A DNA stretch of 51,131 bases, taken from an uncultured Bacteroidota bacterium. GTDB lineage: Bacteria > Bacteroidota > Bacteroidia > Flavobacteriales > UBA7312. The translations under genes were made by a program, and so were the position numbers. The notes beneath the pieces are model-generated. The model had not been told where the DNA came from. It made no database searches and saw only the letters and a list, made by a program, of their open reading frames with translations. Below, piece after piece: positions 7,007 to 51,131 of this stretch (position 1 is its first letter; each line of letters starts with the position of its first letter). Location of the stretch: the NCBI GenBank assembly GCA_902580855.1, contig CACHMF010000010.1, forward strand, positions 1 through 51,131, in the 5' to 3' direction.

Positions 7007-7824
7007 TAGTACTGCTCTTTTTCGTTAGGAAAATCTACCGATTTTACATCCGATACATATTGTCCAACGGCATTTTTAATATCATCAAAAAGGTTTAGGT
7101 ATCTTCTTAAGAAGCGAGGGCTGAATTCATGTGTCATGCCAATCATATCATGAAGAACTAAAACTTGTCCATCTACACCACTTCCAGCGCCAATCCCTAT
7201 TACGGGAATATTGATTGATTCAGCCACTTTTTGCGCTAATGAAGCAGGAACCTTTTCTAGTACAATAGCGAAACATCCAGCTTGCTCAAGAAGTTTAGCG
7301 TCTTCTAAAAGTTTAGCTGCTTCTTCCTCTTCTTTTGCACGAACGGTATAAGTTCCGAATTTATAAATGGACTGAGGAGTTAGTCCTAAATGTCCCATAA
7401 CAGGAATTCCTGCAGTTAAGATGCGCTCGATCGACTCAAGAATTTCAGATCCACCCTCTAGTTTTACAGAGTGCGCACCTGCTTCTTTCATAATTCGAAT
7501 AGCCGAATTAAGTGCTTCTTTGGAGTTTCCTTGATAAGTTCCAAAAGGCATGTCTGCTACAATTAAAGCTCTATCAACAGCTCTAACAACAGATGCAGCA
7601 TGATAAATCATTTGATCTAAAGTGATTGGAAGAGTGGTTTCACGTCCTGCCATCACATTAGAGGCTGAATCGCCAACAAGAATCACATCAATACCACCTT
7701 CATCTACAATTTTCGCTAGCGTGTAATCGTAAGCTGTTAACATTGAGATTTTCTCTCTGTTTTGTTTCATCTCCTGTAAGGAGTTGGTAGTGACTTTTTT
7801 GTATGTTTTTTTATGTATTGACAT
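7006..7824 (-). CDS. panB: 3-methyl-2-oxobutanoate hydroxymethyltransferase
   Basis: This 272-residue enzyme adds a hydroxymethyl group from methylene-tetrahydrofolate to 2-oxoisovalerate, giving ketopantoate, the first committed step of pantothenate and coenzyme A synthesis. Family motifs are clear: '[19 protein letters not shown]', the metal-binding 'LVGDSASNV', '[10 protein letters not shown]', 'VKLEGG', '[10 protein letters not shown]' and '[20 protein letters not shown]'. It acts in the cytoplasm. It starts only 2 bases after the stop of the SPOR/coiled-coil gene and overlaps the pseudouridine synthase by one base, so the three genes form one transcript. No other pantothenate gene is in the window. 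Confidence 0.97.
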
Positions 7825-7826
7825 GC

Positions 7827-14886: not shown

Positions 14887-17076
14887 ATGAAAATTTGCAT
14901 ACTATTATTATCTTTTTTGTTATTAGTTCAAACCTCTTTTTCTCAAACAATAAAAGGTGAAATAACTAATGGTATTGAAGTAATCCCTTTTGCTAACATA
15001 TACGTTAAGGGTAATGGTGTAGGCACTGCTGCAGATGCTTATGGACAATTTACTTTAAATGATGTGCCAAAAGGAAAACAAGAGATAGTTGTATCTGCTA
15101 TTGGTTATATTAAGCATAAAGAGTCGTTCACTGTTAAAGCAGAAACAAATTTTTACAATCCTATTCTAGAAAAGTCTTCGTACGAGCTTGATCAGGTAGT
15201 TGTGACTGGAACAATGAAAGAAAGTTTTATTCAAGCATCACCAGTAAAAGTAGATGTTATTACACAGAGGTTTTTGGAAAAAGTAGCCACTACTAATTTC
15301 ATGGAGGTGATCGAAAATATTAATGGCGTACATAAGCAGGTGAATTGTGGGGTGTGTGGAACGAATGATATTCATATCAATGGTATGGAGGGGCCTTATA
15401 CATTGATTTTAATTGATGGAATGCCAATAATGAGTTCATTGTCAACAGTTTATGGTTTAAATGGAATTCCTACGTCATTGATAAAACAAATAGAAGTTAT
15501 AAAAGGACCATCATCTACATTGTATGGAACAGAAGCAGTAGCAGGAGTTATTAATATTATTACTAAGAAACCAACCGATGTTTCCTTAATTGAATTAGAC
15601 GTTTTTTTTAATTCAGATCTTGAGAAGAATTTAGATTTCGCTTATGCTCCTAAAATTAAAAATGTAGATATGTTGTTTAGTGGTAACTTATATAGCATGA
15701 CTAATTTCATTGATGAAGTTGGATATTCTAATGAAGGTGATGGCTTTTCAGATATTCCGTTATCTGAAAGATTGTCACTATTTAGTCGCTTATCAATTAA
15801 AAGAAAGAGTGGTAAATTATTAGATTTTTCTGCAAAGTATTACAATGAAGACCGAAATGGTGGCGTGAAAGAATGGACAACTGCTTATAGAGGAAGTGAT
15901 TCTGTCTATGGAGAATCTATTTATACCAAACGTATTGAGCTGATGGGAAAATATCAGTTTCCATTTAAAGAAAATATTCGAGTTGATGCTTCTTATAATT
16001 ATCATCATCAGGATAGTTATTATGGAGATACTAAGTATGAAGCTTGGCAAGAAGTTTATTTCGCAAATTTTATTTGGGATAAAAAGATTGATTTAAATCA
16101 CGATTTTTTAGCTGGATATACACATCGTTACCAAAGTTATATTGATAGCACATTAGCTAATGTAAATGAGCAAAAGTTTATCCCAGGTTTATTCGTTCAG
16201 GATGAAGTTAAGTTTCATTACAAGTTGAGCGTGTTGGCAGGATTGCGTGTTGATCATCATAAAGATCATGGATTTATTTATTCTCCAAGATTAAATGTGA
16301 AGTGGCGTCCAGAAACATATACAACAGCTCGTTTAAATGGAGGAACAGGATTTAGGACGGTCAATTTATTTACAGAAGATCATGCAGCATTAACTGGATC
16401 TAGAGATGTAATTGTAATAGAAAAGTTAAATCCGGAAGAATCGTACAATATAAATTTAAATGTTAATCATGTATTCACTTTAGGTAGTACCTCGGGAACA
16501 ATCGACTTTGATTTCTTTTACACCTATTTTAAAAATAAGATCTTACCAGATTATGAGACCAACGAAAACCAAATTATTTATGCGAATTTAGACGGAGTTT
16601 CTATTTCAAGAGGAGTTGCATTTAATTTTCAGCAAAACTTTGAAAATCTGTTAAGTATTACTGCAGGAGGCACAATTTTAGATCTATATTCTATTGATAA
16701 AAACGGAGTAGAACAAGAGGAGTTATTTGCTCCTTCTTTTACAGGGGTTTTCTCGATAAGTTATCAAATAGAGATGCACGATGCATCCATTGACTGGGCA
16801 GGTAAAGTATACGGACCAATGAATTTACCAACCTATGATGAACCATTTAGAAGAAGAGAAAATTCACCTTGGTTTACTTTACAACACCTTCAGTTAAATA
16901 AGAGGTTTAACAGTCAATTATCTACATATATTGGTGTCAAAAATATCCTTGATTATACACAAGAATCACCAATTATAGACTCAGAAAATCCATTTGGAGA
17001 AGACTTTGATACGGCTTATGCTTATGGTCCTATGCAAGGCAGAAGATTTGTCTTAGGAATTAGTTTTAAATTGTGA
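14887..17076 (+). CDS. TonB-dependent outer-membrane receptor, probably for iron or manganese
   Basis: The 729-residue protein has a signal peptide (MKICILLLSFLLLVQTSFS), a carboxypeptidase-like regulatory domain (about 21-105), a plug domain ('DQVVVTGTMKESF', 'LILIDGMPIMSSL', 'IEVIKGPSSTLYGTEAVAGVINIITK') and a 22-strand barrel ending in 'RRFVLGISFKL' with a terminal aromatic-like strand. It imports a metal complex across the outer membrane using TonB energy. In the plug the short motif 'CGVCGTNDIHINGMEG' carries two cysteines. The shared operator with a DtxR-type regulator and a ZIP carrier makes Fe or Mn the likely cargo; this is inference. A terminator hairpin lies 93 bases downstream. 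Confidence 0.9.
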   Translation: MKICILLLSFLLLVQTSFSQTIKGEITNGIEVIPFANIYVKGNGVGTAADAYGQFTLNDVPKGKQEIVVSAIGYIKHKESFTVKAETNFYNPILEKSSYELDQVVVTGTMKESFIQASPVKVDVITQRFLEKVATTNFMEVIENINGVHKQVNCGVCGTNDIHINGMEGPYTLILIDGMPIMSSLSTVYGLNGIPTSLIKQIEVIKGPSSTLYGTEAVAGVINIITKKPTDVSLIELDVFFNSDLEKNLDFAYAPKIKNVDMLFSGNLYSMTNFIDEVGYSNEGDGFSDIPLSERLSLFSRLSIKRKSGKLLDFSAKYYNEDRNGGVKEWTTAYRGSDSVYGESIYTKRIELMGKYQFPFKENIRVDASYNYHHQDSYYGDTKYEAWQEVYFANFIWDKKIDLNHDFLAGYTHRYQSYIDSTLANVNEQKFIPGLFVQDEVKFHYKLSVLAGLRVDHHKDHGFIYSPRLNVKWRPETYTTARLNGGTGFRTVNLFTEDHAALTGSRDVIVIEKLNPEESYNINLNVNHVFTLGSTSGTIDFDFFYTYFKNKILPDYETNENQIIYANLDGVSISRGVAFNFQQNFENLLSITAGGTILDLYSIDKNGVEQEELFAPSFTGVFSISYQIEMHDASIDWAGKVYGPMNLPTYDEPFRRRENSPWFTLQHLQLNKRFNSQLSTYIGVKNILDYTQESPIIDSENPFGEDFDTAYAYGPMQGRRFVLGISFKL

Positions 17077-36295: not shown

Positions 36296-36370
36296 CGGGG
36301 TGTAGCGTAGCCCGGTTATCGCGCCTGCTTTGGGAGCAGGAGGTCGCAGGTTCGAATCCTGCCACCCCGA
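36296..36370 (+). tRNA. tRNA-Pro(TGG)
   Basis: A 75-base cloverleaf with acceptor CGGGGTG/CACCCCG, anticodon TGG in loop TTTGGGA on stem CCTGC/GCAGG, T loop TTCGAAT and discriminator A; CCA is not encoded. Its 3' half (from about 36345) is the likely attachment site of the island that follows, since an integrase gene lies 245 bases downstream in the same direction; the second copy of the site is not in the window. Confidence 0.97.
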
Positions 36371-36392
36371 CAAACATTTCACTCTAATTTTT

Positions 36393-36614: not shown

Positions 36615-37781
36615 ATGAGTGATAACATTACTATCATAACACAACTAAGAAAATCAAAAAAGATGGACGGAAAATCCATGATTTATATAAGAGTTACTTA
36701 TAAAAAGAAAAGATTTGAATTTTCAACAAATCAACAAATCGAAACCAGTAGCTGGGATCCAATTAATAAAGTTGTAATTGATAACCACAAAGTAAACCTA
36801 AACATTTCTAGATCTATCAGTAAAGTATATACATCAATTGCTGAACTAGAATCAGAAGAAGAGTTTTTTACAAACGACCAATTAAAAAATAGAATATTAG
36901 GCATAACAAAGTCCGTTTCTCTTTTGGGTATTATTGAAACCCATAATAATGAAATGAATGATCTAATTCCTAAAAAGTATTCCCAAGGAACTTTAAAGAA
37001 TTACAAAGTTATGTTTAATCACATAAAGAATTTTTTGGCTGACAATAACCTTAAAGACATAGAACTTAAATACGTCAATCAAAAATGGATCAAATCATTT
37101 GAATTCTATTTACTTAAACATACTCAATGCACCAACAACGGGGCAATTAAGTATTTACAAATGCTGAAAAAAATCATTAACATTTCATATATAAATGGTC
37201 AGCTTAAAAAAAATCCATTTGAAGGAATAAAATTCACCAAAAAACCCTTTCAGAGAGGTTATTTAAACATACATGAGCTTAACAAAATTGAAAAAATTAA
37301 ATTATCAGACTCACTTGATAGAATAAGAGATTTATTTGTTTTTAGCTGTTATACGGGTCTCAGTTATATAGATGTAACTAATCTCAAAGAAGATGATATT
37401 ATAATAGGGGAGGATGGTTTAAAATGGATAATTATTAAAAGAGGTAAGACACAAACATTATGTAAAATTCCGTTATTAAATAAAGCTGAATCAATAATTG
37501 AAAAACATCTAGGTAACTATCCTGAAAGAGTTTTTAAAAAAATCAGCAATCAAAAGTTAAATCAATACCTTAAAGAAATCGCACAAAAATGCAATATTGA
37601 AAAAAATATCACTTTTCATTTAGCTCGACATACATTTGCTACAACCATAACTCTTAATAATAATGTTCCAATTGAAACCGTCAGCAAGGTCTTAGGGCAT
37701 AAAAAAATTGCAACTACACAGATTTACGCAAAAATTCTAGATAAAAAAATCAGTTCGGATATTAGAAAATTAGAACTGTAA
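36615..37781 (+). CDS. Tyrosine recombinase (CTnDOT IntDOT-like integrase)
   Basis: The 388-residue protein has an arm-binding N-terminus ('MIYIRVTYKKKRFEFSTNQQIETSSWD'), a SAM-like core-binding domain (about 100-205) and a C-terminal catalytic domain with H335-x-x-R338 ('FHLARHTFATT'), H362 ('VLGHKKI') and the nucleophile Y371 ('TTQIYAKI'). At the position of the first catalytic arginine it reads 'YTGLSYIDVTNL', with serine (S250). The same substitution is known in IntDOT of CTnDOT, so this is expected to be active with a relaxed mechanism. It probably inserted the island into tRNA-Pro. Confidence 0.93.
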   Translation: MSDNITIITQLRKSKKMDGKSMIYIRVTYKKKRFEFSTNQQIETSSWDPINKVVIDNHKVNLNISRSISKVYTSIAELESEEEFFTNDQLKNRILGITKSVSLLGIIETHNNEMNDLIPKKYSQGTLKNYKVMFNHIKNFLADNNLKDIELKYVNQKWIKSFEFYLLKHTQCTNNGAIKYLQMLKKIINISYINGQLKKNPFEGIKFTKKPFQRGYLNIHELNKIEKIKLSDSLDRIRDLFVFSCYTGLSYIDVTNLKEDDIIIGEDGLKWIIIKRGKTQTLCKIPLLNKAESIIEKHLGNYPERVFKKISNQKLNQYLKEIAQKCNIEKNITFHLARHTFATTITLNNNVPIETVSKVLGHKKIATTQIYAKILDKKISSDIRKLEL

Positions 37782-37828
37782 AGGGTTATTAAATATTATT
37801 AAATTGCGATTGATTAGATTCTCTTCAA

Positions 37829-39046
37829 ATGATTAAAGACAATATTTTTAAGTGTATAGGTTTCGTTGAGTTCAATCAAGAAAATATTGATGATTTCAAA
37901 TCATCGGGCTTTTCTATTGTAAAACCTGATGTTCAATTGTCCAACTTTCTAGAATCAACCTATCACTCTGAGTATATCAATATTATGTTTGGAGATGAAT
38001 GTCAACATTTAAACAAAAGCATAAATACTAGCATACATCTAAATCATCTCAAAAAAGATGTTTTATTGAACAAGCTTGATTTATATATTTTTAAAAGCAA
38101 TCTTAATTCGTTTACCGCTGTGTATTCGATAGATTATGTTTTAGATGTTGATGATCTAGCATTATTTTCTGATCTTTCTTTTAATTTAAAAGGACATTCT
38201 ACTGAGATAACAGTAAATGACAAAAATTATACATTAATAGATTTCATTTCTAAAAACCTGTTTAATGGAATTATTTTAAATGATATCAACTCCGATTTAG
38301 CTCAATTTTCAGGTAATAAATTCAAACATTATGCCATATTAGATTTTGAGAAAATTGATTTTGACCTGGATAACTTATTATTTGAATTAGGAACAAATTC
38401 AAAAGTTGGCTCTATTTCTTCCAAGAGTTTAGATTCTCCCTCTGAAAAATATTTTAATCAAATATTAGAAAATAAATTATCTTGTTTCAATAATTACTCA
38501 GGTCTTTCATTAAATGATTCTTTTGTTGTAATTGGAAAAAATAATTATGCAAGAGAAAATAAATATTCTCATTCAACATGGGATGAAATTTATTTTAAAA
38601 TATTTATTTTCAATCAATTTATAAAATCAACTTTACAGATTATTTCAAATTCCTTTTCCAAGGAACCAGTGAAATCTCGAAATACATTTGATAAATTCTT
38701 TAATACATATTTTTTCAATAAAATTTCATTTAATTTTTTACCAAATGAAATTTATAAAACCATTTATACATCTCTTGATATTGATGATGATATTGTTTTT
38801 TTAAGAGATAAATTAAATACATTATCTAATCAGCTTAACGAAACCCAACAAAAACAACAAGAATTTCTATTATTATGTCTATCTATATTAGCTGCACTTG
38901 AAATCCCACTACATATCGAGGGTATTAGAAATATTATTGGAATCAATAATTATGTCATTTATAATTCAATTATATATCCTTTAATTTTTATTACTCTTTT
39001 AGCGATTTTCATCATTAAATATTTAAGAAGGAAAAATTCTAAATAA
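37829..39046 (+). CDS. Membrane protein with large soluble N-terminus and two C-terminal helices, function unknown
   Basis: The 405-residue product is not recognised. About 310 residues of soluble, mixed alpha/beta sequence are followed by a helix likely to be coiled ('DDIVFLRDKLNTLSNQLNET') and two membrane helices (about 345-365 and 375-397) with a basic tail (KYLRRKNSK). The order soluble domain, long helix, two helices recalls CorA-type channels, but no GMN motif is present. Its stop shares a base with the next ATG (TAATG), tying it to the transglutaminase-like gene. Confidence 0.7.
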   Translation: MIKDNIFKCIGFVEFNQENIDDFKSSGFSIVKPDVQLSNFLESTYHSEYINIMFGDECQHLNKSINTSIHLNHLKKDVLLNKLDLYIFKSNLNSFTAVYSIDYVLDVDDLALFSDLSFNLKGHSTEITVNDKNYTLIDFISKNLFNGIILNDINSDLAQFSGNKFKHYAILDFEKIDFDLDNLLFELGTNSKVGSISSKSLDSPSEKYFNQILENKLSCFNNYSGLSLNDSFVVIGKNNYARENKYSHSTWDEIYFKIFIFNQFIKSTLQIISNSFSKEPVKSRNTFDKFFNTYFFNKISFNFLPNEIYKTIYTSLDIDDDIVFLRDKLNTLSNQLNETQQKQQEFLLLCLSILAALEIPLHIEGIRNIIGINNYVIYNSIIYPLIFITLLAIFIIKYLRRKNSK

Positions 39047-39900
39047 TGATAAAGCGTTTAGTCCATAATGTTGTTTCATATTTTGTTGGAATGTTTTTTA
39101 TTTCAATGATTTTTTCTGTAATTGGATTTTTTGCTGACTTATTCAGTGGAAATGATGATCAGAAAAAGGCCATTGACAAACAAGAAAAAAATGTTGTCAG
39201 TTCAGCCTCTCTTTTTAAAAAATACAACTCCTGGTACGATAATCTAAGTACAAATAAAGGATATGATGGTACGTTTACAGTGAGGCAAAGTGATTATTAC
39301 CAGTCGAAGTATTACAGAAATAATGATGGTTCTAATGTAAATACTTACACAGCATTTTACTCTAACTTAATAGGAAATGATATTGAAAAATTGGATTTAG
39401 TTTTAGACGAATTAGAAAGAATAGCTCTTAAAAACAATCTAACTAGACATCAATTTGCTAACGTTATAGTATCATTTGTACAGGATATACCTTATTCTTT
39501 ATTGATTCCACAAGACTGTCAATCATCATACTATTCTTCTGAAATTGTAAAAGATTTAATTGATCAAGGTTTTAAGTGCCATGGTAATGAGGTGGGAGGG
39601 TTATATAGTCCAGTTGAGTTTATTAAGAATTTTCATGGTGACTGCGACACAAGAACTCTTTTTTTGTGGAGTGTTCTTTCTTATTTTAACTACGATGTTG
39701 TTATTCTCAATAGTGAATTTTATGGTCATTCTATTTTGGGCTTGAATCAGGCTGCATCAGGTAAATATAAAACCATCTATGGAAAGCGATATTATGCATG
39801 GGAAACAACAGCTAAAGGCTACAAACTAGGAATGATTCCAGCGGACTGCTCTAACATGTATTACTGGGAGGTAGCCATGCCATCAATTAAAAACAATTAA
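39046..39900 (+). CDS. Membrane-anchored transglutaminase-like (papain-fold) protein
   Basis: The 284-residue protein has an N-terminal membrane helix (VSYFVGMFFISMIFSVIGFFADLF) and a domain with the transglutaminase-like triad: cysteine in 'FHGDCDTRTLFLW' (C200), histidine in 'FYGHSILGL' (H228) and an acidic residue in 'YAWETTAKGY' (E253). It may act as protease, amidase or acyltransferase at the membrane; the substrate is unknown. It is the middle gene of a three-gene membrane cassette. Confidence 0.75.
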   Translation: MIKRLVHNVVSYFVGMFFISMIFSVIGFFADLFSGNDDQKKAIDKQEKNVVSSASLFKKYNSWYDNLSTNKGYDGTFTVRQSDYYQSKYYRNNDGSNVNTYTAFYSNLIGNDIEKLDLVLDELERIALKNNLTRHQFANVIVSFVQDIPYSLLIPQDCQSSYYSSEIVKDLIDQGFKCHGNEVGGLYSPVEFIKNFHGDCDTRTLFLWSVLSYFNYDVVILNSEFYGHSILGLNQAASGKYKTIYGKRYYAWETTAKGYKLGMIPADCSNMYYWEVAMPSIKNN

Positions 39901-39916
39901 TATTATATATTTTATT

Positions 39917-40438
39917 ATGAATCAATCAGTATTTTTTTATTCACTCATAGAGATTGGAATATCATTAGTTTTAGGTTTAATTTTACTTTACACCACTTTT
40001 CGAATAATAGATAAGTTTATAAGAAGAAAATATAATATTGAACTCAACAATGTAGCATATTCTATTTTTACTTCTGCAGTTTTATTTTCCGTTGCATATC
40101 TTGTTAGTGGAATTAAGTCACCTATTTTAAACTCTTTGAGATTATTACAAGATCAAGTAGGGTATGATGGAGTTCTAATCATAGATGTGCTGAAATATAG
40201 CTCATTGTTTCTATTGGTTATTATAATTGCTATTGCAATGGTTAATTTTATCTCAATTTCTTTATTCACCTTAATGACAAAGGATATTAAAGAATTTGAA
40301 GAAATCAAAAACAATAATATAGCTGTAAGTATTATTACTGCTGTTGTAATAATTTCAATTTCAATTCTTGTTAAGGATAGTCTATACTTGTTATTAGAAT
40401 CTTTTGTTCCTTATCCAGAAGTTAGAAGTTTTCTTTAG
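39917..40438 (+). CDS. Four-helix membrane protein, DUF350-like
   Basis: The 173-residue protein has four membrane helices (about 8-30, 45-66, 94-118, 133-155) in two repeats, each repeat containing a polar 'NxAxSI' type helix start ('NNVAYSIFTSAVLFSVAYL', 'NNIAVSIITAVVIISISIL'), as in DUF350 (YjfL-like) proteins. DUF350 proteins occur in envelope-stress and peptide-modification operons. It lies 16 bases after the transglutaminase-like gene, and its stop overlaps the convergent NTPase gene's stop by 2 bases. Confidence 0.7.
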   Translation: MNQSVFFYSLIEIGISLVLGLILLYTTFRIIDKFIRRKYNIELNNVAYSIFTSAVLFSVAYLVSGIKSPILNSLRLLQDQVGYDGVLIIDVLKYSSLFLLVIIIAIAMVNFISISLFTLMTKDIKEFEEIKNNNIAVSIITAVVIISISILVKDSLYLLLESFVPYPEVRSFL

Positions 40439-41928
40439 GAAATAGCACCACGTTCTATCACAGTCTTTACAAATTCTTCAGAAGGATTAAAATTTGCTAT
40501 TGCACTAGAAACCGATTCTTCGTCCAGTCCAAGTAAAGGCTGCACAGATTTTAACTCATGTTGAGTGTCAAAATTGGGAAATTGATAATAACCCTCTCTG
40601 TAGGTGAATATCCATTTTATTTTTGCAGAACTATTCCAGCTTTCTGTAGCTTCACCATTGTCATCATAGTTAGAAAAATAGTCGCTAATATTATAATCAG
40701 AGTAGGCAACAGAAGCTTCATCTAATCCATCGATTATAATTACGAGGTTCCCCGTAGTATTCTTTCGGGTTGGAAAGAAGCATTCATCGATAAGGGTATG
40801 CAAAAGCATGATAACATCTGTATATTTACTTGGTAGCTTAGTAATTTTCTTTTGTAATTCCTCATCCTCAGTACTCCATAACTGCATCTTTTTACCTTGA
40901 AGGATTAAATGATATATGATAGCATGTAAATTATTAGCTAATCCGCTGCCGCAAAAATGATAAAGAACAGGAATATTCTCATCAGATAACTTAGAAATAA
41001 CATCAGCAATTAATGCTCCTTTACCCATACCGGCCTGAGAAAATATTGGCAATATATTTTTATCATTATCACTTGACGACCAGTCGATGATGTCTCGACT
41101 TTCCTTATCCCTTCCTACAAAACATTCATTATAATATTCAATTCTATTTCTATGATCAAATACTTGTCCGGCTCCACCCTTTAAGAGATTACGCATAGGA
41201 TCAAAAAGTACATCAAAATGATTGCTTTCTTTTTGTTGTTCTATATCACCATGAAAAGTGCTAATAAGCTCTGGAGTAGATTTATTATTATATAAACCTT
41301 GGAATATATAAGGAAGGCCATCAGCATTTCCTTTTTGTACAAATGGATGTAAATCTATTTCCTTTTCTTCTACTATAAAATAATATTTACCGTCCTTTTC
41401 CTTAAGTACTGTATTGCCATAGAGTTCATTTGCTTGTGAGCAAAATTGATTTAGGGTTTTAATACCTTTTTGTAGATCATTAACATACTGTGATTTAACA
41501 GATATCAATTCATGTACATATTTATTTCTAAGGGTAATGAATCTTTCTATTAGAGATTGTTTGCCTTTTTCATGTTCAACACATTTAGACCATTTGGAAC
41601 CGGGCTCACAACATATCTGCCAAATAGTTTTCCAATTAGTATCTGATGGTAATATTTCACGTAAGTTTTCCAAGATTTGTTTCATCAGTAATGCATCTTC
41701 ATCAGTGTCTCCTTCTTGTAGACGCTTAGAAAGTTGTATTACTGCACCCAAACGCAAGATTAGTGTACAGGCACCAAGACCTGACATAAATAGGTTGTTT
41801 AGCTCAGTAGGATTCTTACGCACTATTAAATCAAGTTCTTCTAGATTTATGTTTTCTAAAGCTAGAGATTCATATTGATTAAAAAATCTGTCTACATAGT
41901 TGCTGATTGGTTTTGGCAAAAAACTCAT
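40435..41928 (-). CDS. STAND/NACHT-like NTPase subunit, ending after the NTPase domain
   Basis: The 497-residue protein has a helical N-terminal domain with an Rx4H motif (R134-H139 in 'LRNKYVHE'), HEPN-like in pattern, a linker 'FVGRDKESRDIIDW' typical before STAND NTPases, and a NACHT-like domain: Walker A region 'FSQAGMGKGALIADV' (295-310), Walker B 'LVIIIDGLDEAS' (395-406) and sensor 'WIFTYREG' (439-446). The Walker A has glycine (G304) where serine or threonine should bind magnesium. It stops at 'FVKTVIERGAIS', where STAND proteins continue into a winged helix. That continuation appears as the N-terminus of the 1511-residue protein encoded upstream. ATGA overlap with the 513-residue gene couples the two. 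Confidence 0.8.
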   Translation of the reverse strand: MSFLPKPISNYVDRFFNQYESLALENINLEELDLIVRKNPTELNNLFMSGLGACTLILRLGAVIQLSKRLQEGDTDEDALLMKQILENLREILPSDTNWKTIWQICCEPGSKWSKCVEHEKGKQSLIERFITLRNKYVHELISVKSQYVNDLQKGIKTLNQFCSQANELYGNTVLKEKDGKYYFIVEEKEIDLHPFVQKGNADGLPYIFQGLYNNKSTPELISTFHGDIEQQKESNHFDVLFDPMRNLLKGGAGQVFDHRNRIEYYNECFVGRDKESRDIIDWSSSDNDKNILPIFSQAGMGKGALIADVISKLSDENIPVLYHFCGSGLANNLHAIIYHLILQGKKMQLWSTEDEELQKKITKLPSKYTDVIMLLHTLIDECFFPTRKNTTGNLVIIIDGLDEASVAYSDYNISDYFSNYDDNGEATESWNSSAKIKWIFTYREGYYQFPNFDTQHELKSVQPLLGLDEESVSSAIANFNPSEEFVKTVIERGAIS

Positions 41929-43466
41929 ACTTGTAGTGATTTATGTTGATATTCTAAATTGGTATCACGTCTTCCAATTGAGAAAAACACTCGTGAACTT
42001 TCATTAATCTCTTTTGGGAAATTATATAGTGGATCTATTTCATCTTGTTCAAAAGGAACTTCTTTTGTTTTTAGAAATGGATGTAGAATTGAAAATGCTT
42101 CATGTACAAATTCAGTAGAAAACTTATATTTATCAGCAAATCTTCTAGCTAAAACAAGTTTTTCTGTGTTTAGTTCATCAACTAATTTAGTTGTAATAGC
42201 ATGTAATTCTTTATATGCTTCACTTTCATCAGCAACATCTTTATTTGGCCCTTTAAATCTTAGATAATTATTAAATGATTCTTCCCATTCTTTTTCTTTA
42301 GGAAGATATGCGTCACTGTCAATTGTATAGCTATTGTTAAAGAATTTATCTAGAAAAGGATAATGATTCCCAAAAGTAACTAATAGTATATTGTTTTCGT
42401 AAAATAGGTCTTTTAGATGCAATAAATGGTCTGAATTAAAAAGATTGATGTGAATATTATGAAGTATAACAACTATTTTCTCTGTGCATTTTTTACTAAG
42501 TTGAATTAAAGCTTTTCTTGGGTCTTTACTAAAGGAGTCACTATTGCTCTGTTTTGCAAGTTTTTTTACTAATCTTTTTAATAAAAAGTCATCCGTTACA
42601 TTTACACCATGAGAATCTAAACTATAGAATACTTTTAGATATTTACTCTCATCTAGATGATTAATTAAGTTAGCATACTCAGAAAGCAAATTGTGATTAG
42701 GTCTAGCCCAAACAGACATTGAACCCTTACTGTTAGAATTAATAAAACTATCTACACTTTCTAATACTTTATCATTATTAGTATTCTGCAGAACAAGTTT
42801 TAGCTGATCCTCATCATATTTATCTGAAAGTTCATACTGGATATCTTTAGTTAATTCTCCAAAATCATGAGATTTGTCAAATAATTGCCATTGATTTTCC
42901 TCAATTGACCAGTCATCATTAAAGAAAATAATATCATCCGATTTAGAAAGGAAATGATAAGATGGTTCTTTATTTAATGAGAATAAATCAAGATCTATAA
43001 TTTGTGTTAGAATATTTCCAATATGATCTGCTTCTTCATGATTTCTAGAAGCTGGAAGAATAAAGAACCCATGCATTACAGCATTTCTAAGTTTCGATAA
43101 TCTATTTATATCTTGATTTAAAACTCCTTCTTTCCAAAAAAGCGAATGAATCTTTTTTGAAAAATCATCATCTAATTCTTTTACCATGTTAGCAGCCCAC
43201 CTGTAAAGAGGTCCAGCATTATAAGTATGAGATTTGGAAGTAAAAAGCTGTAGAATGAAGTCATTAAAAACCTGCTTTTGTTTTGGTTGAGACAGATATG
43301 CTGAAATTCCAATAGCAGCTATTTGAAGTAGTATTTCCTCACTTAAGGATACTAATTCGTCTGCAGCATATGACTCATCTTCATTTAATACATCATTTAT
43401 CCTCTTCGTTATAGAAAGAGGTAGCTTTTTACTGCCTTGAAATTTTTCTAATATTAATTTTTTCAT
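41925..43466 (-). CDS. Helical protein with Rx4H motif and degenerate NTPase-like domain, partner of the STAND NTPase
   Basis: The 513-residue protein is not in a family I can name. Its N-terminal helical domain has an Rx4H motif (R127-H132 in 'KLRNAVMHGF'), like its downstream neighbour. The second half reads like a STAND domain whose motifs have decayed: 'SMSVWARPNHNLLSEYANLI' where a P-loop would be, 'KIVVILHNIHINLF' in place of Walker B and 'NILLVTFGNHYPFL' as sensor strand. It may be an inactive regulatory partner of the 497-residue NTPase, to which it is coupled by an ATGA overlap. The gap to the 1511-residue gene upstream is 32 bases. Confidence 0.65.
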   Translation of the reverse strand: MKKLILEKFQGSKKLPLSITKRINDVLNEDESYAADELVSLSEEILLQIAAIGISAYLSQPKQKQVFNDFILQLFTSKSHTYNAGPLYRWAANMVKELDDDFSKKIHSLFWKEGVLNQDINRLSKLRNAVMHGFFILPASRNHEEADHIGNILTQIIDLDLFSLNKEPSYHFLSKSDDIIFFNDDWSIEENQWQLFDKSHDFGELTKDIQYELSDKYDEDQLKLVLQNTNNDKVLESVDSFINSNSKGSMSVWARPNHNLLSEYANLINHLDESKYLKVFYSLDSHGVNVTDDFLLKRLVKKLAKQSNSDSFSKDPRKALIQLSKKCTEKIVVILHNIHINLFNSDHLLHLKDLFYENNILLVTFGNHYPFLDKFFNNSYTIDSDAYLPKEKEWEESFNNYLRFKGPNKDVADESEAYKELHAITTKLVDELNTEKLVLARRFADKYKFSTEFVHEAFSILHPFLKTKEVPFEQDEIDPLYNFPKEINESSRVFFSIGRRDTNLEYQHKSLQV

Positions 43467-43498
43467 ATTTTGAAAATTATTTATGTATTAGAAAGTAG

Positions 43499-46400
43499 TT
43501 AAACTCTATTTATTATTTGTTCTGAATTTGAAAGAGAATCAATAAAGCTTTTTAACACATTTATCTTATCATAGAAAGTTGCCATAAGAAGGTTGTTATT
43601 TAGTTTAATGTTGTCATTTTTTATTATCCAGGCAAGACCATTAGAAAATTTAGACTCATCAATTCTAAATCTGTTTAAATTATAAAACTTGATAGCTTCA
43701 TTAAAATTTAAGTTTTGAAAGACTAAAAGAGAAAAATCAAAAAAGTCCTGTCTGTTTAAATCTTGAGATTTTTCATAAATTAAAGAAAGTAATTCTTTAC
43801 ATGCTGATAATTGCCCATTTTTAAAGTGATAATTATAGGTCATAATTAATACAACACATAACTTTTTTAAATTTAAAGACCTTATAGAATAATCCTCTAT
43901 CTCACTATTAATTTTTAAACATAAATTCATTGTTTCTGTAAAAAGATCAGAATAATTCCTAAACGCATTAATTGATTGAATATAAAAATTAACAAGATTT
44001 GAGGTATTTCTATCAAGGATTTCTTTATCACCTAAGCTAATTTCTGTTAGATTACTAATGGATTGTTGTAATAGTCTTCTTTCCTTAATTAAAATTTGCT
44101 CTGGCGCATTTATCTTTAGTAAACGTTTTAGTCTATTACTTCGGATTAAAATACGTCTATATGTGTCATTTAAATAATTTGCAACTACATAAACATTTGA
44201 ATCATGTTCCTTTATCATTGGCCTCAGTCTTGGTGAAACAACTGGAATGATATTGAAATTATATGAATCTATTTGATCAATTAACTCTTTTGGTAAATCA
44301 ATACTATTAGTAGTTGTTAAAGATTTAAACAATTCAGCACCTGTTTTTGCAATAAGATTGTCTTTATCATTGGTATCTAAATATTTATATTCTGTTGGAA
44401 TGCTATTTAATGCACTCATATACTCTTCCAATGTAAGAATATCCATAACTTTTAAAGGATTTTCTTGGATATCTACGGCTTTACCAGGTTGTATTACTAA
44501 ATAACACTCACAGTTGATAATTTTTTTCAAATCAGATACTTTAATCTTCAAAAAAGATGCAATTTCATTTAACAAAGAGGAGGATTTATCAATAAATACT
44601 GGTAATTCTGTACTAATGTGTCCAATTCTATTTATTTCATTATCATATATAATTTTAAAATCGCTATTCATAATTGAGTTATTATATGTCAACGATATTG
44701 TTCCAAATATCTTTTCACAGAATAATCCATCTTCACAAACTTCATTTGTTATTTCAATAATAGTGTCAGGTGTTAATACCTCGCCACATGATTTTTCAAC
44801 TATCTCAAAAGAAGATAAATTTGATAAAATTGATTTTAAAAATCTAAGTGGGCCGTTCTTCCTTTTCTTACTATTAGATAAAATATATTTGTAATTTGAT
44901 TCTGTATTAAAAATAATATTTTGACTACTAAAATCCACATTGGTATTTGCAAAACTTAAAGAATTCATTACTCTATTATAATTTTGAGCATCTTCTTTTT
45001 CAGAAAAATATTTTAACATAACACCATAAACAATATTTGGTATTGCATTGAAATGTAATTTAGGAAAAAGTGTTTTATCAAAATGTGTATGCTTTGTGAA
45101 ATGAGTCCAACAATTTAGCATTTGTTCTTCATTAATTTTAAAATAATTGAATGAGTTTTCTGCCTTTTGGACATATTCAAATGATAAACTCAAATAATCA
45201 TTTGCTCTTTCATCGCTGTGATTGTCAAGTAATTTATATATTTCAAAACAAAGTAACCCTTGACGTATAAATACACACTCGTACGCTAATATTTTTAAAT
45301 AAAATTCTTTACATACATCATTATTAAACCTTTCTGGATCATCTATAAAAGAAGAAAATGATTTTTCTAAACTTATAGCAGTTTTTAATAAGACTTGCGA
45401 GTTAGTTAAATAATCATTAGGTTTTTTTATAGAGTTTAGAGGATATATATTTATCAAATGATGCTCAAGAATTGGAAAAAAATATTCAAGTCTTAAACCT
45501 TTATTGTTTTGTTTGTAAAAAACTGATAATAAATCAATAATAGAAATACTATCTTCATGATTAGAATCTCTATTATTTGAAGAATTATTTAAATTTTTTA
45601 ATTCTATTTGTTCCTCTTGAGAATTAAAGTCATATGATGGTGAGTAATCGTTTTTAATTAGTTTTTCATTGAAAAAATCTTCAGAGTAATTTATCGATGA
45701 TAAATCAATTTTCCAAAATACAAGTGAAAAAATAGTTTCATTAGTTTGTAATTCTTTATGGATAAAATTGATGTGATTAGAATCTAATCTGCCTTCCCAA
45801 TCAAGATGTATAATATCTTTATTAAATGAAACCTCTCCGCTTTCTTCATCAACATAAGCATCAATACAACATTTAAAACATGAGTTTTTGACTAATTTTC
45901 TGCCTATGAATTTTGACAGCTTGCTAATTTCATGATTTGAATAATCATCAGATTTATATTTTAAAGGTTTTTCCTTAATATAGTAATATTCAAAAAGCAT
46001 ATCATAATTCAAAAATTCTTTTTTAATTGTATTTTTTAAAAAAGAATTAGCTTTTTTAATGTTATTTTCATCCTTAGGTTTTCGTGTTATTTGGTTATCA
46101 AAATTTTGTTCATTTTTTAAATGCGCAATATTTCTTTTTAATTCATTTTCTCTAAAAAAGCGATCTACATTTTCATTAAAAATATCTTTTGCAAATTGGT
46201 CAGATTTTTCAAAATATTGTGAAATATGTTCGTAAATTTTTTGTTTTTCTGTAACAGAGAAACTAGGAAAAATATCATAATTTTTACTGTCATCATCATC
46301 ATAAACCTGACTCTCTTGAACACTCTCCTTTAATTCTGAATAGGTGCCATTTATTTGGTTAAAAAACTTATCCAATAGTTGCTCTTTGAGTTCAATTATA

Positions 46401-48034
46401 GAAACAGCTTGTTTTTTTGTAAAATCTGATTTTATTTTTTTCTTTTCTGTTTGTTGCGTTACAAAAATCTTATTGTAAGCAATTATATATTTTTCTATTT
46501 TTTTTAAATTATGTTCAAATAAATCTGTAATTCTATAAAAAGCAGACATATTTTTATCAACTATTCTATGATAAGTATCTAAAAATGCTATTGCATAATT
46601 GAAAAGTGTTTTATCATAATAAGTTGCAGTTGTTAAATCCCAGCTATCAAACGGAATATCCTTGTGCAAGTGGCTGTTTTTTATCAAATAGTGTGGGTTA
46701 ATTTTTATTAAAGAATTAAGCAATTTTAATAAAACATCAAAGAAGTTATTCTTTTTATCTACATCTAAACCATCTATAAAGCAATAATCAGCATATGACC
46801 TATTAAAATCTTTAGATGAAAGTGTAATTAAAATGTTTAAAAATGTCGAAATTGCTAATTCATCATATTTTTGTCCAGTAATAGAAGCATACCTGTTAAT
46901 GTTGGAAAAGTCAAAATAGTAAGTTAAATGATCTATTAGTAGCGGGTAATCAACATAGTCTATAGATTGCCAAATAAATGTAAAATCAATGTTGCGCTTT
47001 TCTAACTCCAAATTAATAGAGAACATCACTTCTTGTGGAAAGAAATCTGACCAATGAATTTTTTTTAGTGTAATACCTTGTTTTGTTTTTTGTTTTGTAA
47101 TTTCTAAAACATTGCTTGAATCGTCAGTGAGTTTTTTTAGTTTATTTATTATTTGATTAAAAAATGAATTATCAAAACAATAAAATTTAAACTCACCCAA
47201 TAATGTTTTCATCAAAATATAGATGTAAATCCTAAACTGCATTTCTCCTTTCCAATTAGCAGCTCGTTTTAATGCTAACTCTATATCATTGTTACGTATT
47301 AGGTTAAAAATTTCTTTGTAATTTTTTTGCTCATCACTAATGAGATTAAGTTTTTTTATTGAAGACATTAAAGCATCTTTCTCATTATTTCGTCTAGCAG
47401 ATTCTTTTATTCCATATTTCAATGCTTCCTGACTCCACTTATACTCTTTAGATACTCTTACTTGTCTTTCCCAAAGATTTTCTTGACTTACAAATTCATA
47501 CAATCTATCATAGTTATTATCTAACTGTGATTCTACAGCCATATGTGTAGCTAAATGCTGTAAAGCATACTCATTAGCTTCATCGATAATATTACGCTCT
47601 AAGGCGGCCTCTAAATAGCTAATTAATGTTTCATTAATAGATTGAATTTCATGTGAGCTTAGTTTCTGAAGAAAGTATGTACGCAAGCGATCGTGATATA
47701 AAATGTATTTACCAGGCTCTGTTGAGTTAAACCACTTAGAGTAGGTATCAATGAGTGCTTTAGTTTCCTCTTCATCCTCTTGTAATATTTCACTTGCAAG
47801 ATGAGTGCTAACAGCTGCTTTAAACAGAGCCCAAAGTGCTAATCTTTTTAATAAAGATGTTCTTTCAAAAGAAGAGATGTTTGCTGGGAATTCATTTTCG
47901 AATAAACCAATAAAACCTTGCGGAAGTGCTGAGGCATTCGATGCATTTAATAAACCCTTATTAAGCCCATCATAAACATATCTAAGATATGTTGGTTCTA
48001 ATTTATTTATATACTGGCATTTATTTTTCTCCAT
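43499..48034 (-). CDS. STAND-like sensor subunit (winged helix and helical repeats) with an inserted RNA polymerase beta-prime-like domain
   Basis: The 1511-residue protein lacks its own NTPase. Residues 1-200 read as the part that normally follows a NACHT domain: 'KLEPTYLRYVYDGLNKG', 'LPQGFIGLFENEF', 'YHDRLRTYFLQKL', 'EYALQHLATHMA' and 'LWERQVRVSKEYKWS'. A long alpha-helical solenoid follows (about 200-1065), then a beta-prime-like domain (about 1073-1332, separate entry), then a final helical part. Its ATG lies 28 bases inside the end of the TPR gene. GC is about 35% in the first 150 or so codons (41/120 at 47581-47700, 43/120 at 47821-47940 by hand) and 21% in the middle (51/240 at 46021-46260). 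It is probably the sensor arm of the 497-residue NTPase. Confidence 0.75.
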   Translation of the reverse strand: MEKNKCQYINKLEPTYLRYVYDGLNKGLLNASNASALPQGFIGLFENEFPANISSFERTSLLKRLALWALFKAAVSTHLASEILQEDEEETKALIDTYSKWFNSTEPGKYILYHDRLRTYFLQKLSSHEIQSINETLISYLEAALERNIIDEANEYALQHLATHMAVESQLDNNYDRLYEFVSQENLWERQVRVSKEYKWSQEALKYGIKESARRNNEKDALMSSIKKLNLISDEQKNYKEIFNLIRNNDIELALKRAANWKGEMQFRIYIYILMKTLLGEFKFYCFDNSFFNQIINKLKKLTDDSSNVLEITKQKTKQGITLKKIHWSDFFPQEVMFSINLELEKRNIDFTFIWQSIDYVDYPLLIDHLTYYFDFSNINRYASITGQKYDELAISTFLNILITLSSKDFNRSYADYCFIDGLDVDKKNNFFDVLLKLLNSLIKINPHYLIKNSHLHKDIPFDSWDLTTATYYDKTLFNYAIAFLDTYHRIVDKNMSAFYRITDLFEHNLKKIEKYIIAYNKIFVTQQTEKKKIKSDFTKKQAVSIIELKEQLLDKFFNQINGTYSELKESVQESQVYDDDDSKNYDIFPSFSVTEKQKIYEHISQYFEKSDQFAKDIFNENVDRFFRENELKRNIAHLKNEQNFDNQITRKPKDENNIKKANSFLKNTIKKEFLNYDMLFEYYYIKEKPLKYKSDDYSNHEISKLSKFIGRKLVKNSCFKCCIDAYVDEESGEVSFNKDIIHLDWEGRLDSNHINFIHKELQTNETIFSLVFWKIDLSSINYSEDFFNEKLIKNDYSPSYDFNSQEEQIELKNLNNSSNNRDSNHEDSISIIDLLSVFYKQNNKGLRLEYFFPILEHHLINIYPLNSIKKPNDYLTNSQVLLKTAISLEKSFSSFIDDPERFNNDVCKEFYLKILAYECVFIRQGLLCFEIYKLLDNHSDERANDYLSLSFEYVQKAENSFNYFKINEEQMLNCWTHFTKHTHFDKTLFPKLHFNAIPNIVYGVMLKYFSEKEDAQNYNRVMNSLSFANTNVDFSSQNIIFNTESNYKYILSNSKKRKNGPLRFLKSILSNLSSFEIVEKSCGEVLTPDTIIEITNEVCEDGLFCEKIFGTISLTYNNSIMNSDFKIIYDNEINRIGHISTELPVFIDKSSSLLNEIASFLKIKVSDLKKIINCECYLVIQPGKAVDIQENPLKVMDILTLEEYMSALNSIPTEYKYLDTNDKDNLIAKTGAELFKSLTTTNSIDLPKELIDQIDSYNFNIIPVVSPRLRPMIKEHDSNVYVVANYLNDTYRRILIRSNRLKRLLKINAPEQILIKERRLLQQSISNLTEISLGDKEILDRNTSNLVNFYIQSINAFRNYSDLFTETMNLCLKINSEIEDYSIRSLNLKKLCVVLIMTYNYHFKNGQLSACKELLSLIYEKSQDLNRQDFFDFSLLVFQNLNFNEAIKFYNLNRFRIDESKFSNGLAWIIKNDNIKLNNNLLMATFYDKINVLKSFIDSLSNSEQIINRV
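44039..44818 (-). other. RNA polymerase beta-prime (RpoC) N-terminal clamp-like domain inside the 1511-residue protein
   Basis: Residues 1073-1332 contain, in RpoC order, 'SCGEVLTPDTI', 'EDGLFCEKIFG', 'RIGHI', 'YLVIQPG', 'LTLEEYMSALNSIP', 'LIAKTGAE', 'IIPVVSPRLRPM', and 'LNDTYRRILIRSNRLKRLL' followed by 'APEQIL' and 'KERRLLQQS'. The bacterial beta-prime equivalents are GEVLKPETI, DGLFCERIFGP, RMGHI, YVVIQPG, LSEEEY, IAKMGAEA, PVIPPELRPL and LNDLYRRVIIRNNRLKRL with APEVILRNEKRMLQES. The last block is the clamp coiled coil that binds sigma region 2. The zinc ribbon between the FG and MGHI blocks is missing, and the match ends before the catalytic NADFDGD. Confidence 0.88.
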
Positions 48035-51000
48035 TCATCAATATCTATTACCTGGCTTAATAAATTGAGTTTTTCTTCAATATATTCAGTATTATTAATA
48101 TCATATTTATTATATAACATACTCATTAAAATATCACCAAATGTTTTGATTTGGTTATGGAAATTACTCAAATACATATATTCGGAATCGACTTCTGTTT
48201 TTTTGAAAAAATTATTTGAAACTGGTACAATGAACGATTCAATATCATTTTTAAAATATTGTTTCCAAGACAAAATATTATCTTTAAAATTCATTTTAGA
48301 AAAGAAATCAGTATAAAATTCTCTCTTTTGTAAAATGTTTAATTTTTTATCGTTGATTATTAACTGAAGGGAATCAACAACATTACTTTCATTTAGCTTC
48401 CAAGCGATATTAAATATTGCTTCATAATATGGATCTTGGTAAGCGTATGGATTATCCCATTCGTTATAAATATAAGTATATACATTAGAATGAATTTTAT
48501 TAAGATTATAAAGAGACTTATTTATGTCTCCAATTTTTAAAAGTCTTTGAACAGCATTAGATAAAAACTGAGATTTATTACTTTCATTAATTATAGTTTT
48601 ATATTCTTTGCCCCAACGAGTATAAATATATCCTTCAATTAATTTAGAATTTTCTGCATTTTCAACTTCTTTAATAGCCAAATCAATGTATTCTTCTGCC
48701 TTTTTAATATTTGACATTTTATAATATATATCAGCAACCTCTAAGTAAGAGTATCCTTTCATTGGCCATTCTGTATGGTTGGCTAAACTTGAACCTTTGT
48801 CTATTAAATTAATTACCTTATCTAAATATTTTAACGAATATTCAGTTTTATTATCATCTATTAAATTATTGATATAGTAAAAATATACTTTAGCGATTTG
48901 ATTAGGTTCAAATAAATAAGTTGATATGGTTAGCGCTTCTTCTGGCCATCCTTCATCTATCAATCTCTGACATATTGATTGATAGATATAATATATATAA
49001 TTCCATGGCACAACTTTACCATAACTATTAGCAAAAGCATCTGAAGGGTCATCCTTTATTACTAAAAGATCTTTAAACTCTTTAGTAATATCCAAAACAG
49101 ACCCTATATCATCCTGATTTATCAATTCATAGAATGTACCTAATACTTTGTCAATATAATGATCCTTATGAGAACCATCCTTGAAAGATTCTAAATATAC
49201 TCTACAAGATATTCCAATCATTTTTAAGGCCTCTGTTTTTTTGTCTTTAATAATATAATTATTCTCCTGATCTTTAAATCTAATATCTATTGATTCAGGC
49301 ATATAATCGTTTAAAATCTTGACTCCCGTTTCAAAATATAATTCTGCTTTTGTCTCAGGACTCTTAATTTCCTCAGATAAAATATAAAACAAATTAATAA
49401 TAGAACCAGCCTTTAACAATAACAAAGGAGCAAGCTCTTTATTTATTTTATCTTTTTCCTCAGGGTATAAATTTTTTCTAAGTTTTAAAATTTGCCTAAT
49501 CTCATCATTTGTATAAACATCATTAATGAGATTTACATTTAGATTATTTATTAGTTTGATAATTTTAGATGAATCATTTGTATTATCATCAATATTTATT
49601 AGTTCAATTTTCCCGAAATTTTCTAATTTTTCTCTTATGATTTGAGTAACTGGTTGCAGTTGTTCATTGTAAATTTTTTCTCTCTTTAAACTATTAATTA
49701 CTTTTTTGAGAAAAAAACCAATACGAACATCTTTTTCAAAACCAACTCTATATTTTTCGACCTCAATAGGGTATTTTTCTAAAACCTCTGAGACTAAATT
49801 AGACATTTGATCTAGATTAGAATTATTTAAAAACTTTTCATTTTTGAGAATATTTTTATTTTTCTCACTCAATTTTAACTTCTCAAATTTTACATATTTA
49901 AATAAGTATTCCTCTGTTGTATCTTTCAGGAAAATCATTATCCCTAACTTTTTTATCTTATTTATTTTTTCATAAAGTAAATTATAGTGGTTTGAACCTA
50001 AAACATCTGCAAATTTGTCCGAGTTTATTTTTAAAAAGTTATGTAAGTCACTTATTTCTTTATTATTGGCAAACTCATGTATCTCATCTAGTTTGAGGTC
50101 ATAGTATATATCTTTGTCATTTTCAAGGTCTTCAACTACATCAATAATATATTTTAACAAATCAATTTTATTTAAATTTCTTGTCAACATTCTATGACTA
50201 ATCGCAAAGGATGTTTCATATGGAAGCCTGTGACCAAATTCTGGATATTTTTTTATTAATTTTAAAAGTTCTTTTTTGTTTATTAAAACTAGATTAGAGT
50301 CAATTTTCTCTAAAAATCTTCTAATACTTTTTTCTTTATCTTTTATACTCTCTAAGGTTTCAATAGCCTTTATAGCTTCAGATAATATTTGTTTTGATTC
50401 AATTAATAAGCCTGTCTCAAAGGTGATATTACACATTTGTGCATATATCTTGAATTTGAAATTTAAAATATTAAATGACTTGAAAATTGAAACACCAAGT
50501 TTATTAATTAAATTCAAGGCTTGATTAATGGCAGTTTTTGCTTCTTTATTTTCTCCTTTTTTACTATGAATTTCATACAATTTAAGCCAGAGATCAATGT
50601 TACATTCATACTCATCTAAGTAAAATTCTCTTTTATTATTAACGTCCTCCACTTTGAACATTTTTTGTTTCGCAAGAGATATAAATTTATCGACTTCTTG
50701 AAGCATATTATCAATGTATAACTCACGAGCTATTGATAAATATACTTCAGCTTTCTGCATGCCAGGCTTTGTAGCTATATCTGTAATTTTTTCAATTAAT
50801 AAAAACGCTTCTTTTTTCTTGTTTTTACTATACAAATATTGTGCCATTTCTACATAAATTTCATTATTTCGATTTATGCAGTCTTCTAACTTCCACTCCT
50901 TTATTGCTTGATTAAATGCAGGTTGTTTTTTTGGAGAATTCTTAGGATCTAAAAATTCAATTGCCTCAGAAACTTTATTTAAACCAATGAGAAACTTGCC

Positions 51001-51131
51001 ATACCAACTCATTAAAAAAGGAGCTATATTACAAATACCTTTAAAATCTTTTAAAATAAATTCATCAAGACCTTCATTTTGAATCCAAGGAAATAAATCA
51101 TTATCAATGATTATTTTGAATAATGTAGGTA
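48007..51131 (-). CDS. Very large TPR/helical-repeat protein with a GatB-tail-like insertion, 5' end outside the window
   Basis: The minus-strand frame is open to the right edge without a stop; the Met at 51012 is internal (about 39 further residues, 'FILKDFKGICNIAPFLMSWY', are readable upstream). At least 1040 residues are visible. They are helical repeats of TPR type ('GENKEAKTAINQALNLI', 'KKAEEYIDLAIKEVENA', 'ALTISTYLFEPNQIAKVYFYY'), the usual sensor part of STAND proteins. Counted from Met 51012, residues 400-463 resemble the GatB/YqeY tail (separate entry). The gene overlaps the 1511-residue gene by 28 bases. Whether an NTPase domain lies upstream cannot be seen. GC is 66/240 at 49201-49440 by hand count. 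Confidence 0.75.
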   Translation of the reverse strand, partial: PTLFKIIIDNDLFPWIQNEGLDEFILKDFKGICNIAPFLMSWYGKFLIGLNKVSEAIEFLDPKNSPKKQPAFNQAIKEWKLEDCINRNNEIYVEMAQYLYSKNKKKEAFLLIEKITDIATKPGMQKAEVYLSIARELYIDNMLQEVDKFISLAKQKMFKVEDVNNKREFYLDEYECNIDLWLKLYEIHSKKGENKEAKTAINQALNLINKLGVSIFKSFNILNFKFKIYAQMCNITFETGLLIESKQILSEAIKAIETLESIKDKEKSIRRFLEKIDSNLVLINKKELLKLIKKYPEFGHRLPYETSFAISHRMLTRNLNKIDLLKYIIDVVEDLENDKDIYYDLKLDEIHEFANNKEISDLHNFLKINSDKFADVLGSNHYNLLYEKINKIKKLGIMIFLKDTTEEYLFKYVKFEKLKLSEKNKNILKNEKFLNNSNLDQMSNLVSEVLEKYPIEVEKYRVGFEKDVRIGFFLKKVINSLKREKIYNEQLQPVTQIIREKLENFGKIELINIDDNTNDSSKIIKLINNLNVNLINDVYTNDEIRQILKLRKNLYPEEKDKINKELAPLLLLKAGSIINLFYILSEEIKSPETKAELYFETGVKILNDYMPESIDIRFKDQENNYIIKDKKTEALKMIGISCRVYLESFKDGSHKDHYIDKVLGTFYELINQDDIGSVLDITKEFKDLLVIKDDPSDAFANSYGKVVPWNYIYYIYQSICQRLIDEGWPEEALTISTYLFEPNQIAKVYFYYINNLIDDNKTEYSLKYLDKVINLIDKGSSLANHTEWPMKGYSYLEVADIYYKMSNIKKAEEYIDLAIKEVENAENSKLIEGYIYTRWGKEYKTIINESNKSQFLSNAVQRLLKIGDINKSLYNLNKIHSNVYTYIYNEWDNPYAYQDPYYEAIFNIAWKLNESNVVDSLQLIINDKKLNILQKREFYTDFFSKMNFKDNILSWKQYFKNDIESFIVPVSNNFFKKTEVDSEYMYLSNFHNQIKTFGDILMSMLYNKYDINNTEYIEEKLNLLSQVIDIDEWRKINASI
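49624..49815 (-). other. GatB/YqeY tail-like segment inside the TPR protein
   Basis: About 64 residues read 'LDQMSNLVSEVLEKYP', 'IEVEKYRVGFEKDVRIGFF', 'LKKVINSLKREK' and 'QPVTQIIREKL'. The C-terminal tRNA-binding domain of GatB has the pattern ...IVDEVLAENPKAVEDYR, AGKEKALGFLVGQVMK, ATKGKANPKLVNELLREKL. Shared features are VE-x-YR-x-G-x-EK, the GF-L-x-V core and the closing REKL. Similarity is weaker than for the beta-prime-like domain but runs without gaps for most of its length. Confidence 0.6.

Follow-up and report, generated by a model that had tools for sequence, protein, structure and literature searches.

A CorA-like membrane protein and a transglutaminase-like/DUF350 gene pair beside STAND/HEPN-type genes on a genomic island of an uncultured Bacteroidota bacterium

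The described systems closest to the locus reported here are Zorya, type III CRISPR modules with CorA effectors, Avs-type STAND proteins, LapG-type cysteine proteinases, and the MoxR-vWA ternary systems. ZorB of Zorya needs peptidoglycan binding for defense (PMC11890865), and CRISPR CorA effectors bind SAM-AMP (PMC10600005). The MoxR-vWA iSTAND ternary systems, present in Bacteroidota, join a STAND component to transmembrane (TM) proteins with peptidoglycan-binding OmpA domains (PMC7159879), and DUF350/YjfL proteins are present in PspA envelope-stress operons (PMC11237479). Here, we report a locus in which genes for a CorA-like membrane protein, a transglutaminase-like protein, and a DUF350 protein lie on an island beside STAND/HEPN-type genes, a combination described neither in PADLOC (2023) nor in the open PMC full texts searched. 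Those full texts held nothing relevant on DUF4407, on DUF350 together with a transglutaminase, or on periplasmic transglutaminase-like antiphage proteins.

The window (the whole stretch of DNA analyzed, 51,131 nucleotides) is contig CACHMF010000010.1, positions 1 to 51,131 of the forward strand, from GenBank assembly GCA_902580855.1 (Flavobacteriales; UBA7312). Its relevant features are as follows:

36296 to 36371, plus strand: tRNA-Pro (TGG; ARAGORN), the probable island integration site
36615 to 37781, plus strand: tyrosine recombinase (island integrase) with Pfam Phage_integrase, SAM-like, and Arm domains
37829 to 39046, plus strand: gene 1, 405 amino acids (aa), CorA-like membrane protein
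39046 to 39900, plus strand: gene 2, 284 aa, putative membrane-anchored transglutaminase-fold enzyme (Cys200-His228-Glu253)
39917 to 40438, plus strand: gene 3, DUF350 (YjfL-type) 4-TM protein, Pfam PF03994
40435 to 41928, minus strand: NPHP3_N/NACHT-type NTPase, 497 aa, with the HEPN-type motif RNKYVH, convergent with gene 3
41925 to 43466, minus strand: partner protein, 513 aa, with the HEPN-type motif RNAVMH
43499 to 48034, minus strand: 1511-aa protein with a LEPTYLRYxYDGL N-terminal domain
48007 to 51012, minus strand: 1001-aa TPR-type protein (Pfam TPR-type matches), first gene of the minus-strand operon

Genes 1 and 2 overlap by 1 base, and genes 2 and 3 are separated by 16 bases. The three open reading frames were confirmed as first read, each having homologs in other genomes, which excludes a chance reading. 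Hydrophobic segments in all three (two C-terminal in gene 1, one N-terminal in gene 2, four in gene 3) agree with the preliminary description, which had called them membrane proteins. That description also placed them on a mobile island, which is supported: the block begins after tRNA-Ser and tRNA-Pro, followed by the tyrosine integrase (Pfam Phage_integrase, E = 4e-18), and GC content falls from 0.342 to 0.274 beyond tRNA-Pro. Recombinases in the BLAST cluster of this integrase lie near gene 1 in three other genomes (G870, G819, and G783). A second att copy was not found up to the contig end (75%-complete assembly). No plasmid or phage home was found for gene 1, transglutaminase matches on plasmids were distant haloarchaeal ones only, and no viral contigs were found.

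Gene 3 is a DUF350 protein (PF03994, E = 5e-12; 46.3 bits against a gathering cutoff of 26.0), so that of the two domains to be sought by profile, DUF350 was recovered as anticipated; gene 2 had no family match, Pfam included, and did not itself reach the Transglut_core gathering score. Homologs of gene 2 were gathered from whole genomes and one scan of GTDB contigs, and one of them gave a subthreshold Transglut_core match at the active-site region. The AlphaFold2 model of gene 2 was confident (mean pLDDT, 90.5), and its top Foldseek matches, individually weak (E of ∼0.01; TM-score, 0.2 to 0.4), were mostly of the transglutaminase superfamily (TG2, LapG, bacterial TGase, and PNGase). Membership of gene 2 in that superfamily is supported, as judged from the model, with no close structural relative found; sequence searches of the PDB with all three families gave chance-level or weak matches only. 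The Cys-His-acid active site proposed at the outset held across about 88 homologs, C200 being kept in 88/88 aligned stretches, H228 in 87/88, and E253 in 88/88, with D199, D201, and the cysteine pair C158/C178 also invariant or nearly so (36-member alignment; ∼88 stretches). The active-site motif is GDC, and the acid residue, Glu, lies within ETT.

The gene 2 catalytic domain is predicted to be in the periplasm because of the basic N terminus ahead of a single TM segment in the window protein, a DnaJ domain preceding the membrane segments of one homolog, and the pair C158/C178, which fits an oxidizing compartment. DnaJ domains are cytosolic; the one in question stands at the N terminus of the homolog at L011:8324-10237, ahead of its TM segments, and suggests chaperone recruitment on the cytosolic side. 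Longer gene-2 homologs mostly have two to three hydrophobic segments in a simple hydropathy scan.

The DUF350 gene adjoins the transglutaminase gene on the same strand, usually a few bases apart, in 86 of 88 homologous loci; the two form an invariant unit, a near-obligate pair. Three contexts of this pair were distinguished. In Aquimarina, Ulvibacter, Altibacter, and relatives (context A), it sits at a fixed chromosomal site behind a LuxE-like gene, near tyrS and with a YHS-type neighbor, and no gene-1 or STAND homologs were found beside it in these Flavobacteriaceae. In context B, it forms an operon with two DUF4407 proteins, and its transglutaminase carries a long extension at the N terminus. 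In context C, comprising the window and L021 (a contig of G794, an uncultured Flavobacteriales metagenome-assembled genome [MAG]), it is convergent with a homologous pair of NTPase/HEPN-motif genes. The fixed chromosomal site of context A shows that the pair also serves at least one role off islands, where no STAND genes accompany it. Two genomes from another class of the same phylum have a distant version of the pair, its gene order reversed and no STAND genes nearby (L012:6646-8138 and L013:7301-8791). Nothing was found to tie the gene 3 DUF350 protein to a peptide-modifying enzyme, an association that had been proposed for such proteins.

Gene 1 has a soluble N-terminal domain, C-terminal helices with two TM segments, and a basic tail after the second. 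Residues 229 to 401 distantly match PADLOC models of CRISPR-associated CorA (E = 5e-9), a similarity repeated in four homologs; in all five proteins, it covers the C-terminal part only, and the N-terminal domain of gene 1 lies outside it. No Pfam or NCBIfam match was found. An FSGSKFK-type stretch in the N-terminal domain and an FLPN motif are conserved in a 15-member alignment, from which the GMN motif, the mark of canonical CorA channels, is absent. The AlphaFold2 model was too poor (pLDDT, 56) for a structure search. Homologs of gene 1 occur in 2 of 395 genomes of a phylum sample (two-member profile) and in 18 of 299 genomes in the order of genome G135 (three-member profile).

The preliminary description took the three genes for one cassette. 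This did not hold as a conserved unit: gene 1 forms a module of its own, which lies to one side or the other of the transglutaminase-DUF350 pair, from ∼1 kb to many kilobases off and in varying orientation, and the constant unit is the pair. A conserved three-gene operon was ruled out, as gene 1 was directly attached to the pair in no other genome read. In G075, gene 1 is present without the pair; its homolog there is directly 5′ of a 510-aa protein with a DUF4145-like N terminus (L019:2077-3609), a possible alternative partner. In most loci of the G135 order, a 160- to 190-aa protein of unknown family (L135:7252-7788 and homologs) lies directly 3′ of gene 1, and it is absent from the window.

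Of the minus-strand neighbors, the 497-aa protein matches Pfam NPHP3_N (E = 5e-12) and is 45 to 46% identical to homologs in other systems; the 513-aa protein is 42 to 43% identical to its own. A motif scan found the HEPN-type Rx4H motifs (RNKYVH and RNAVMH, respectively). The N-terminal part of the 1511-aa protein matches proteins of the related loci L123 (44%), L127, L010, and L128 by BLASTP. Its residues 1073 to 1331 match RNA polymerase Rpb1 domain 1 (E of ∼3e-10, above the Pfam cutoff), a match missing from the homologs in related loci, the C-terminal parts of which differ. The 1001-aa TPR-type protein had no homolog in related loci, and its part in the system is uncertain. In L123 (G794:C27), homologs of the 497-aa, 513-aa, and gene-1 proteins are split into several open reading frames (6290-9371 and 15944-17019), reflecting decay or sequencing error, with the transglutaminase, DUF350, and 1490-aa genes intact; intact copies of the split genes exist in other genomes.

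A link to the STAND genes had been suggested from their position beside the membrane genes, and co-inheritance with them across distant Bacteroidota extends it beyond mere adjacency. In the G135 order, the transglutaminase was present in 15 of 18 gene-1 genomes versus 1 of 74 gene-1-negative genomes (Fisher P = 2e-13, the 74 excluding three in which the 513-aa family is present), and the 513-aa family was present in 10 of 299 genomes, 7 of which also have gene 1 (P = 9e-8); these P values overstate certainty because related genomes are not independent, and MAG gene counts are affected by incomplete assemblies, the statistics coming from one order and the phylum sample. Gene 1 and the transglutaminase share a contig, at most 18 kb apart, in 11 of the 15 genomes. 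Five genomes (G000, G794, G135, G798, and G1024) have the 513-aa family, gene 1, and the transglutaminase pair within ∼20 kb of each other, in differing orders and orientations. The 497-aa and 513-aa genes belong with gene 1 and the pair, not as a single operon, since gene order and orientation vary.

Fuller versions of the locus occur in the G135 order, where the core reads DUF4407, DUF4407-like, a TM protein with an OmpA domain, transglutaminase, and DUF350. The OmpA domain (E = 1e-21) was accompanied by a match to ZorB models (E = 2e-14; PADLOC), and a comparison of this protein with the long transglutaminases for a shared N-terminal domain was no more than suggestive (29 columns; probability, 15%). 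A STAND protein associated with related loci combines an NTPase with repeats, the NTPase region resembling Avs2 (E = 9e-11), and in G135 itself, a CBASS cyclase, E2, and phospholipase set lies in the same region. The window copy has neither the DUF4407 nor the OmpA partners, and its genome, 75% complete, gave a single DUF4407 match, below cutoff. Searched against PADLOC, the transglutaminase, DUF350, DUF4407, and 513-aa families had no match (one chance-level match for the last).

We put at about even the chance that genes 1 to 3 act at the envelope as part of a mobile, multicomponent STAND/HEPN conflict system; from the island, the HEPN/STAND partners, and the CBASS genes in the G135 region, we infer that the system is probably antiphage. 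The preliminary description named separate neighbors or a housekeeping operon as evidence against a joint function, and the pair of the Aquimarina/Ulvibacter type indeed holds a fixed chromosomal position without gene 1 or STAND genes, set against co-inheritance elsewhere. An unlikely reading is that the pair serves envelope maintenance, the enzyme being a peptidase or cross-linker of the periplasm and DUF350 its membrane partner, and that it travels as island cargo, functionally apart from the STAND genes. The chromosomal site with LuxE-like, YHS-type, and tyrS neighbors, lacking gene 1 and STAND genes, favors it, as does the presence of DUF350/YjfL in PspA envelope-stress operons (PMC11237479), but in another order, gene 1 and the 513-aa family co-occur strongly with the pair, and in two distant genomes a STAND pair is convergent with it; both findings speak against this reading. 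It is quite possible that a maintenance function of the pair was later recruited into immunity.

In a further explanation, gene 1 would be a CorA effector like those of type III CRISPR, gated by a nucleotide signal, responding to a second messenger from elsewhere, and linked to the pair only through defense-island clustering. In its favor is the C-terminal similarity to CorA effectors, which are SAM-AMP binders (PMC10600005); we consider it improbable, as no Cas10 or phosphodiesterase/lyase gene was recognized among the neighbors read, the CorA models leave the N-terminal domain uncovered, and gene 1 is linked to one particular enzyme pair far more tightly than general island clustering would predict. 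That the membrane genes work by themselves, as a toxin or peptide-modification module with no relation to the STAND genes, takes up the earlier suggestion of a toxin and draws on the close coupling of these genes and their position on the strand opposite the STAND operon. Co-inheritance with the STAND/HEPN genes argues against it, no small peptide substrate or secretion gene was seen beside the pair, and we hold it highly improbable.

If genes 1 to 3 do serve a STAND/HEPN system at the envelope, gene 2 would have an inner-membrane anchor and a periplasmic thiol domain (Cys-His-Glu), with the DUF350 protein holding it or coupled to it, and would cleave or cross-link an envelope substrate, e.g., a protein or peptidoglycan peptide. 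Gene 1 may act in the membrane as a CorA-like effector or sensor gated by a ligand or by stress, and the NACHT-type NTPase and HEPN-motif proteins would be cytosolic, probably forming a nucleotide-switched RNase. The DUF4407 and ZorB-like peptidoglycan-binding proteins of the fuller versions suggest two directions of action: in all likelihood, the membrane part either signals damage to the envelope inward, in a Zorya-like manner, or delivers a lethal blow outward after cytosolic recognition. Inward envelope signaling is a serious option given that peptidoglycan binding by ZorB is required for defense (PMC11890865). We tentatively propose, at rather less than even confidence, an immune system of Bacteroidota, so far undescribed, whose peptidoglycan-anchored assembly (DUF4407, OmpA-domain protein, periplasmic transglutaminase-DUF350, and CorA-like protein) connects to a NACHT/HEPN switch in the cytosol and couples phage disturbance of the envelope to an intracellular RNase response through a periplasmic thiol enzyme, the window holding a compact mobile version. 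The associations offer a candidate function to three families that lack an assigned one (the gene-2 transglutaminase family, DUF350, and DUF4407) and to a CorA-like family outside CRISPR. If true, the proposal describes an immune switch of the STAND/HEPN kind that has a periplasmic enzyme as one of its arms; to our knowledge, no such arm is part of Zorya, Avs, or type III CRISPR CorA systems.

Compared with the type III-B CRISPR CorA effector, gene 1 shares the soluble N-terminal domain, the C-terminal helices with two TM segments, and C-terminal profile similarity, but it has a transglutaminase of the periplasmic type, DUF350, and STAND/HEPN genes for partners. No CRISPR genes (Cmr/Cas10), NrN/DEDD, phosphodiesterase, or SAM-AMP lyase were recognized among the neighboring window genes profiled; a type III CRISPR CorA module was rejected, as no CRISPR genes were recognized and only half of gene 1 matches. 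Zorya (ZorAB with ZorC/D/E) was likewise rejected, there being no ZorA/C/D/E: the DUF4407 proteins tested showed no similarity to ZorA (MotA-like), and the window operons contain no ZorA or ZorB gene. The fuller loci share with Zorya a TM protein with a peptidoglycan-binding OmpA domain and cytosolic effector-type proteins, whereas the window copy lacks the OmpA-type protein, the ZorB-like form of which is confined to related loci. A MoxR-vWA ternary system was excluded because no MoxR or vWA domain was present in the eight window proteins scanned (36615 to 51012); a STAND component, OmpA-domain TM proteins, and occurrence in Bacteroidota are common to both (PMC7159879), but the STAND family and the membrane proteins here are different ones. 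With Avs-type STAND proteins, the associated protein of related loci shares an Avs2-like NTPase plus repeats, while the window NTPase is short (497 aa), bears a motif of the HEPN type, and has a 513-aa partner. Gene 2 resembles LapG and bacterial transglutaminase-like cysteine proteinases in its Foldseek matches, predicted periplasmic placement, and GDC active-site motif, and it differs in its acid residue (Glu within ETT), membrane anchor, near-obligate DUF350 partner, and lack of a sequence-level match to a PDB chain. The resemblance to each known system is at the level of a part.
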